Assembly (NCBI GenBank): GCA_021295755.1
Contig: JAGWBT010000014.1
Location: 1-35,721 of the forward strand
Direction of reading: 5' to 3'
Length of the DNA stretch: 35,721 nucleotides
Source: Candidatus Poribacteria bacterium
GTDB taxonomy: Bacteria; Poribacteria; WGA-4E; PCPOR2b
Positions 3,813 through 5,582 of this stretch are shown here, piece after piece. Under the pieces are notes generated by a model that did no database searches, was not told where the DNA came from, and saw nothing but the letters and a program-made list of their open reading frames with translations. The translations under genes were made by a program, and so were the position numbers. Every line of letters starts with the position of its first letter. The stretch's first letter is position 1.

Positions 3813-3849
3813 GGTAGCCTTATAATAACTGATCAGATTGGAAATATCT

Positions 3850-5018
3850 ATGGGAATTTACGAACAATTTGGAGTTACACCGATTATTAATGCCTCCGGA
3901 GCGGTGACTCGTCTCGGCGGTGCACCGATGCCCGATGAGGTGTTGAATGCGTTTAATAAAGCTGCCCGTGTGTCGGTGCCGCTTGAACAACTTCAGGCAG
4001 CTGCCTCCAGAGTTATTGCGGACGCGACTGGAACGGAAGCCGGTTTGGTTTCCGCCGGCGCTGCGTCCGCCCTGACTTTGGGCAGCGCTGCAATCTTGAC
4101 AGGCTACGACTTGGAACGAATGGAGCAGCTGCCGCACTGCGACGGATTTCCCAACGAGTTTATCGTTGCCCGCGAGCAGCGGAGCGGGTACTTGTTGAGG
4201 TCGGCTTCAACGAAATCGTCGCAAATGCAGGCGTGCGTCGAACTGAAGCGTGGGAGTATGAAGCTGCCTTTGGACCGAATACGGCAGGCGTCCTCTATGT
4301 ATATAGTCCGACCTCCAGACCTCCGCTCGAAGAGGTTGTTGATGTTGCACATCGGCATCAACTGCCTGTATTGGTAGATGCAGCGGGTGAACTTCCGCCG
4401 CGTAGCAACCTCAAGTCGATTGCGGCGACGGGGGCAGATTTGGTAGCGTTCAGCGGCGGCAAGTCCATTCGGGGTCCCCAGTCAACAGGGATTCTCTGCG
4501 GCCGGCGCGATCTCATTGGACCTGCCATTGTACAACTGTTGGATATGGACGACCATCTAGAACTCTGGAATCCACCGGCATCGCTCATTGACAAGGCAAA
4601 ACTCCGTGGCATCCCACGACACGGTATAGGGCGCGGCTTTAAGGTGTCAAAGGAGGAAATTATCGCCCTGCTTGTGGCGTTGCAGCTTTTCACCTCTGGC
4701 GCTTACGATGAAGAAGTCCCCAAGGCACATGCACGCCTCAACCGGATCGTGGAAAAGTTAAACGGTTCGCCCGCGGAATGCAGCCTCCGTGATAAAAAAG
4801 ATGGTGAAAGTCTCCCACTGCTGGAAATCACGATTGATGAAGTGGCTGTTGGTCGAGAGGCGATGGAGATCTGCCAAAGTCTCCGGAGCGGTGTCCCACC
4901 GATTTATGTCAGCCACGGTAGTCTCCGAGAAGGGAAATTGCTGATTAATCCATTGCACTTGAACGACACCAACACCGAAACGCTTGCCGAGAGGATTCGC
5001 CAAGAATTAAATCCTTAA
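3850..5018 (+). pseudogene. SelA-like PLP-dependent lyase/transferase, frameshifted
   Basis: The protein starts MGIYEQFGVTPIINASGAVT, the standard start of COG1921 fold-type I enzymes (SelA-like, including D-glucosaminate-6-phosphate ammonia-lyase relatives), so I prefer the ATG at 3850 over 3838. Frame 1 is good through NEFIVAREQRSGY (about 4200). The family sequence resumes in another frame at VLVEVGFNEIVANAG (about 4185-4230) and continues to the TAA at 5018. That second part holds the PLP lysine region AFSGGKSIRGPQSTGILCG and the DAAGE segment that contacts the cofactor. The junction seems to lack about ten residues, so this is more than a one-base slip. It is either a deletion-plus-frameshift pseudogene or an assembly fault. 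It is not SelA itself: the N-terminal SelA domain is absent and the length of about 390 residues fits the shorter relatives. Confidence 0.75.
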
Positions 5019-5099: not shown

Positions 5100-5582
5100 A
5101 TGCCACGAAAAAACAAGATTCTCAACATCGGTGATAAGGCGCCGCTATTCACATTGATCTCTGTTCAGCGTGAGACCGTGAGTCTTGAGTCGTATCTCGG
5201 TCAACAGCCTGTCATCCTCGCCTTCTTTCGCGGAACGTGGTGACCGAACAGCCGTCGCCAGTTAGGAGACCTACAGCGCAACAGTAGTGAATACACAGAC
5301 TTGGGGGCTGCGGTGCTTAGCATTGTTGGTCAATGGCCCCGTGAGGTGCGTCGATATGCCGAAACGCATGACATCACCTTTCCGCTGCTCACGGATAAAG
5401 AGCGAGAGGTGATTAAAAGCTATGGGGTGTACCACTGGCTAGGCCTTGATGCGTATAATATCGCTCGCCCTGCGACATTCGTGATTGATAAGGATTTAAT
5501 TATCCGGTTCATGTATATTGGCTCACATCAGTTTGATCTCGCTAAACATGAGGATATCGTCGCAGCCTTGAAAGCACTTTAA
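5100..5582 (+). CDS. Peroxiredoxin/thioredoxin-fold protein with in-frame UGA at the redox Cys (candidate selenoprotein)
   Basis: Read through one TGA, this is a 160-residue AhpC/TSA-like protein. It opens with IGDKAPLFTL (10-19), has the strand-loop QPVILAFFRGTW (36-47), then codon 48 is TGA, followed by PNSRRQLGDLQ (49-59), VLSIVGQWPREVRRYAE, ITFPLLTDKEREVIKSYGV and the cis-Pro segment ARPATFVIDKD. In this family the segment normally reads RGTWCPxCRRQL, so the TGA falls exactly on the peroxidatic/redox Cys and the resolving position is Ser51. The 113 codons after the TGA are intact and family-like, and a SECIS-like hairpin lies just downstream. Against recoding: TGA is an ordinary stop for several neighbours, several neighbouring genes carry inactivating lesions, and no sel genes are in view. 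No good Shine-Dalgarno is visible. Without recoding, translation would end at residue 47. Confidence 0.55.
5256..5278 (+). promoter_or_regulatory. Candidate bacterial SECIS-like stem-loop
   Basis: Stem CGC (5256-5258) with GCG (5276-5278), an internal loop, then UAGG (5263-5266) with CCUA (5270-5273), and a 3-nt apical loop AGA with G at its second position. The loop lies 23 nt after the UGA at 5241-5243. Bacterial SECIS elements are small hairpins inside the coding sequence, about 16-37 nt past the UGA, with a G near the start of the apical loop. The fit is by eye; short stems of this sort also arise by chance. Confidence 0.4.

Follow-up and report, generated by a model that had tools for sequence, protein, structure and literature searches.

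Prokaryotic selenoproteins comprised 119 families and subfamilies in a 2026 review (PMC13188914), whose entries include PF00578 proteins with UxxC/UxxU or TxxU sites and a UxxS protein under cd02970; a differing redox motif is counted as a separate subfamily in such reviews (PMC13188914, PMC2398784). The Prx-like thiol:disulfide oxidoreductase selenoproteins (UxxC/UxxU; PMC13188914, PMC2398784) share the PF00578 domain and Sec at the N-terminal motif position with the protein described here, which in contrast has a UxxS site and lacks a second Cys. UxxC members of that group occur in the same genomes as the UxxS protein, but their SECIS elements lie at another position and have a GGC/GGA-type loop instead of the AGUU loop of our gene. 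A peroxiredoxin-like UxxS protein (cd02970/PF13911, MDX2448127.1; PMC13188914, PMC9312934) shares the motif and the AhpC/TSA superfamily and could be the same family or a separate one, the present protein scoring 104 bits against PF00578 and 16 bits against PF13911 (cut-off 27). Glutathione peroxidases (UxxT; PMC1088965) are thioredoxin-fold selenoenzymes with Sec in the first and a hydroxyl residue in the fourth motif position and with resolution by an outside thiol, as is likewise proposed here, but a Pfam scan of our protein gave no GSHPx match and the family is therefore a different one. The overall fold is common to the AhpE and Bcp 1-Cys/PrxQ peroxiredoxins (1xvw, 3hjp, 2ywn), which carry T-x-x-C(P) and Arg where our protein carries Sec-x-x-Ser and Pro. 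Measured against a canonical peroxiredoxin, the AhpC/TSA fold and domain are present, whereas the PxxxT/SxxC(P) motif and the catalytic Arg are replaced by Sec48, Ser51 and Pro124 at those positions. Enrichment of SelA and SelB has been reported in sponge symbionts (PMC5649159). An open-literature search returned no paper combining 'Poribacteria' and 'selenoprotein', and the gene is a solid example, apparently not described before, of a well-known phenomenon, the use of an in-frame UGA as Sec.

The window, that is, the whole stretch of 35,721 nucleotides that was analysed, is contig C14 of a draft MAG of a sponge-symbiont member of the Poribacteria (5.03 Mb, 96% complete, 4.7% contaminated). 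The features discussed below are as follows.

3838..5018, + strand: SelA-like (by eye) PLP-enzyme gene, upstream neighbour, with a frameshift near 4233-4377
5100..5582, + strand: predicted selenoprotein CDS, AhpC/TSA fold, 160 residues, stop codon TAA included
5241..5243, + strand: predicted Sec codon TGA (codon 48); TGA in 56/57 loci, TGT in 1/57; selABCD in the genome
5250..5252, + strand: Ser51 codon AGC of the UxxS motif; Ser in 57/57 loci, aligned with the AhpE/Bcp peroxidatic Cys
5254..5270, + strand: candidate bacterial SECIS GUCGCC-AGUUA-GGAGAC, loop at 5260-5264, conserved across orthologues
5256..5278, + strand: hairpin of the original prediction, CGC/GCG plus TAGG-AGA-CCTA, foldable (-3.2 kcal/mol)

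A single in-frame TGA at codon 48 interrupts the otherwise open frame 5100-5582, which translates as MPRKNK...RGTW-TGA-PNSRRQL...LKAL-TAA; the 47 codons before and 113 after the TGA that had been counted earlier correspond to 47 codons followed by 112 sense codons and the stop. The N-terminus MPRKNK is conserved in relatives, the PF00578 (AhpC-TSA) match is full-length and runs across the TGA (E 9e-30, residues 10-137), and Cys is absent throughout the product. The original prediction had proposed a selenoprotein here, and its proposal is borne out by the presence of selABCD, by TGA in 56/57 loci and by purifying selection downstream. As the genome contains the complete Sec-inserting machinery and 56 of the 57 related genes have the in-frame UGA, the UGA at 5241-5243 is almost certainly read as selenocysteine.

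The genes selA, selB and the tRNA-Sec gene (selC) were found clustered in that order on contig C53. We assigned selA (481 codons) from reading the ORF beside selB and not from a family search, whereas selB gave a TIGR00475 match above the cut-off; the tRNA-Sec has the anticodon TCA (UCA-type tRNA) and scored 76.6 bits against a cut-off of 47. The selD gene, on contig C104, itself has a TGA within its frame where Sec is normally found (TCG-U-AAK), so that all four sel genes named in the original prediction are present. Contamination was discounted as their source because the single-contig congener G008 has both the UxxS gene and tRNA-Sec, and because tRNA-Sec was found in 73/85 genomes of the phylum. 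Nor has the genetic code changed globally, since TGA is the normal stop codon for 13 of the 24 larger ORFs in the window. This count also bears on the idea that the TGA is recoded as Trp or Gly, or that the downstream part restarts independently, for which the open frame and nothing else speaks; homologues have Cys at the codon 48 site, and the PNSRRQL segment immediately after the TGA is nearly invariant, yet the next usable start in the ORF list is a TTG at 5301, making recoding or restart very improbable.

A single scan of genome contigs supplied 56 orthologous loci, which together with the window make 57. TGA stands at codon 48 in 56 of the 57 and TGT in the remaining one, L091; because the orthologues are related, these counts are not independent. 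All seven of the closest full-length orthologues (69–93% identical) keep the TGA, and the remaining phylum genomes give the same picture at this codon. Both halves of the gene are intact in the close relatives, where degraded downstream halves would have spoken for decay, and a search of homologues through the stop for Cys or UGA yielded the 56 TGA and one TGT codons together with a distant CPxC homologue, RGYWCPVCQRQL. Within the genus dN/dS after the TGA is approximately 0.06–0.11 and is similar before it; purifying selection on the part beyond the TGA is strong, and the doubt about chance decay voiced in the original prediction was well placed. That the TGA is a true stop or a pseudogene mutation, leaving a dead gene or a 47-residue peptide, would agree with its terminating most window genes, but this reading is refuted by the conservation of the codon in 56/57 species-level loci, the low downstream dN/dS and the complete Sec machinery, and we rejected it as extremely improbable. 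We gave just as little credence to a sequencing or assembly error for TGC or TGT: the source is a draft MAG and the adjoining gene has a frameshift, but the same TGA is present in 55 further assemblies, single-contig genomes among them, and this explanation was also rejected. The proposed identity of codon 48 as Sec is well supported.

The TGT of L091 looks like a Sec-to-Cys change, since its species (G027) retains tRNA-Sec and its neighbours in the tree have TGA. L091 also retains the full SECIS-like hairpin, which would then be a relic left by a recent Sec-to-Cys change; alternatively, the TGT is a sequencing error. In the tree the UxxS clade was supported at 99/97, and copies from Latescibacteria and Gemmatimonadota nest inside the Poribacteria (98/99), which suggests that these may have been acquired by horizontal transfer. 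These MAG orthologues (L136 and L137, with URRS and UKRS sites) contain an internal duplication-like insert. As to an origin of UxxS from UxxC, the tree gave no resolution there (weak support, long branches). A nearly universal Sec-dependent protein is hereby documented for the Poribacteria, a group of sponge symbionts, in a gene that gene callers taking TGA as a stop would truncate or overlook.

The candidate SECIS at 5254-5270 begins 10 nt past the UGA, with the apical loop beginning 16 nt past it, and has a stem of about six positions, of which the window version forms 5 pairs with one mismatch. Its AGUU loop is invariant, spanning 4 nt in most orthologues and 5 nt (AGUUA) in the family of the window, and offers a concrete, testable SECIS-SelB contact; the same CC-AGUU-GG loop recurs after the Sec-UGA of the genome's selD and of a UxxD selenoprotein gene. 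The loop is protected at synonymous sites. Gln54 is encoded by CAG in 56/56 sequences (CAG usage elsewhere 54%) and Leu55 by TTR in 56/56 (28% elsewhere in the gene), while Ser51 uses only AGY and Arg52/53 only CGY codons, bar one exception each; Gln59, a few codons downstream, is free (23 CAG, 32 CAA). Hairpin energy was below the synonymous-codon mean in all 56 sequences, with single p<0.05 in 25/56 and a median of 0.053, single-sequence values that cannot be multiplied because the sequences are related. The 17-nt core in the window is weak on its own (-3.8 kcal/mol, p 0.21), its relatives ranging from -3.5 to -12.9 kcal/mol. Under the published bSECIS model (loop 3-9 nt, stem 4-16 bp, 16-37 nt from the UGA, G within the first two loop positions, free energy <= -7.5 kcal/mol; PMC13188914) the window element agrees in loop (AGUUA, G second), stem and spacing (16 nt), and its core lies outside the energy limit. 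RNAalifold over all 56 sequences in one register returned no consensus structure, which is likely due to the 4-nt loop in most sequences as against the 5-nt loop in the window's family, a difference found by hand. The hairpin at 5256-5278 that had been put forward as the SECIS does fold, but only the nearest relatives preserve its base pairing, and it was therefore rejected as the SECIS core. Judged from sequence and conservation, the hairpin at 5254-5270 would act together with SelB and Sec-tRNA(UCA) to have the UGA at 5241 decoded as Sec.

The predicted structure of the product (pLDDT 88.5) has residue 49 at a helix start, and its best PDB matches were Bcp4 and AhpE (TM 0.86-0.90), the range over 1xvw, 3hjp and 2ywn being TM 0.83-0.90; the solved relatives of the protein are Bcp and AhpE peroxiredoxins. 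In the AhpE/Bcp alignment Sec48 falls on the Thr of TxxC, Ser51 on the peroxidatic Cys and Pro124 on the Arg, whereas against a TlpA-like protein of the same genome (WCSPC...GIPCTYYID) Sec48 falls on the first Cys and Pro124 on a Pro. The TGA had been placed at the catalytic Cys, and this holds for the thioredoxin-type N-terminal Cys of a CxxC site but not for the classical peroxidatic Cys, as that residue of true peroxiredoxins aligns with Ser51. The CPxC pattern expected of the family was recovered, with same-class homologues carrying UxxC (RGGWUPFCRTQL) or CxxC sites, the latter including the natural CPVC of RGYWCPVCQRQL. UxxS occurs in all 56 UGA loci, and this invariance makes Ser51 a genuine family trait; the Ser noted in the original prediction is real, but is not the one-off oddity it had seemed.

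The predicted peroxiredoxin-type fold would have Sec48 opening helix 1 at the N-terminal Cys position of CxxC, from where it could react with an oxidised substrate, either a peroxide or a disulfide, to give a selenenic acid or a mixed selenenyl-sulfide that would then be reduced by an outside thiol. An external thiol is proposed because Ser51 replaces the partner Cys and no further Cys is available in the protein. We infer from the sequence a single-selenol enzyme reduced in this way, and the substrate and reductant chosen for Sec48 are deduced on the same footing. Overall, we hold with high confidence that the best explanation of 5100-5582 is a selenoprotein gene; its Sec48 probably serves in a single-selenol oxidoreductase/peroxidase with an external thiol.

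Whether such an enzyme acts on peroxides is less certain, a peroxidase role being only slightly favoured by us. The protein could also be a selenoprotein that acts as a thiol:disulfide (thioredoxin-like) reductase or isomerase on protein disulfides and not as a peroxidase, in keeping with a Sec that occupies the thioredoxin-type site, a Pro124 that stands at the cis-Pro position of thioredoxin-like proteins, relatives with UxxC and CxxC sites and a weak similarity to ResA. Without a second Cys, however, the usual route of mixed-disulfide release is gone, and the overall fold is nearest to the AhpE/Bcp peroxiredoxins; we consider disulfide reduction possible, though less probable. Rather tentatively, the peroxidase-type enzyme may belong to a phylum-wide single-selenol subfamily built on a scaffold like that of AhpE, where Sec for Thr and Ser for the peroxidatic Cys would give a chemistry convergent with that of glutathione peroxidases, and in which a lineage-specific AGUU-loop SECIS would be common to several selenoproteins. 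A Cys-free protein with a single Sec also provides a clean test of selenol action without a resolving Cys.

A conserved redox or other functional operon was looked for around the UxxS gene across the orthologous loci and none was found. Conservation of the flanking SelA-like and glycerophosphodiester-phosphodiesterase-like genes is largely confined to the genus, and other genomes have different neighbours. The SelA-like gene at 3838-5018 is intact (~406 codons) in congeners, its frameshift in the window being an assembly error or a recent mutation.

The genome of the window looks rich in selenoproteins. A Prx-like candidate with a UxxD site (FWRGAY-U-PKD; L007, G000:C33:4837-5193, and L140-L144) has a TGA and a SECIS-like hairpin, GUUCUCC-AGUU-GGAGAAU, that are identical in six genomes, and its motif is absent from the 2026 review (PMC13188914). 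One further gene (L004/L006, G000:C33:31696-32517) encodes two peroxiredoxin domains, each with an in-frame TGA in a TxxU site (FTGG-U). Two loci (L002, G000:C118:7187-7654; L003, G000:C39:13458-13928) are UxxC Prx-like selenoprotein candidates, one of which is a probable lipoprotein with preceding repeat domains.
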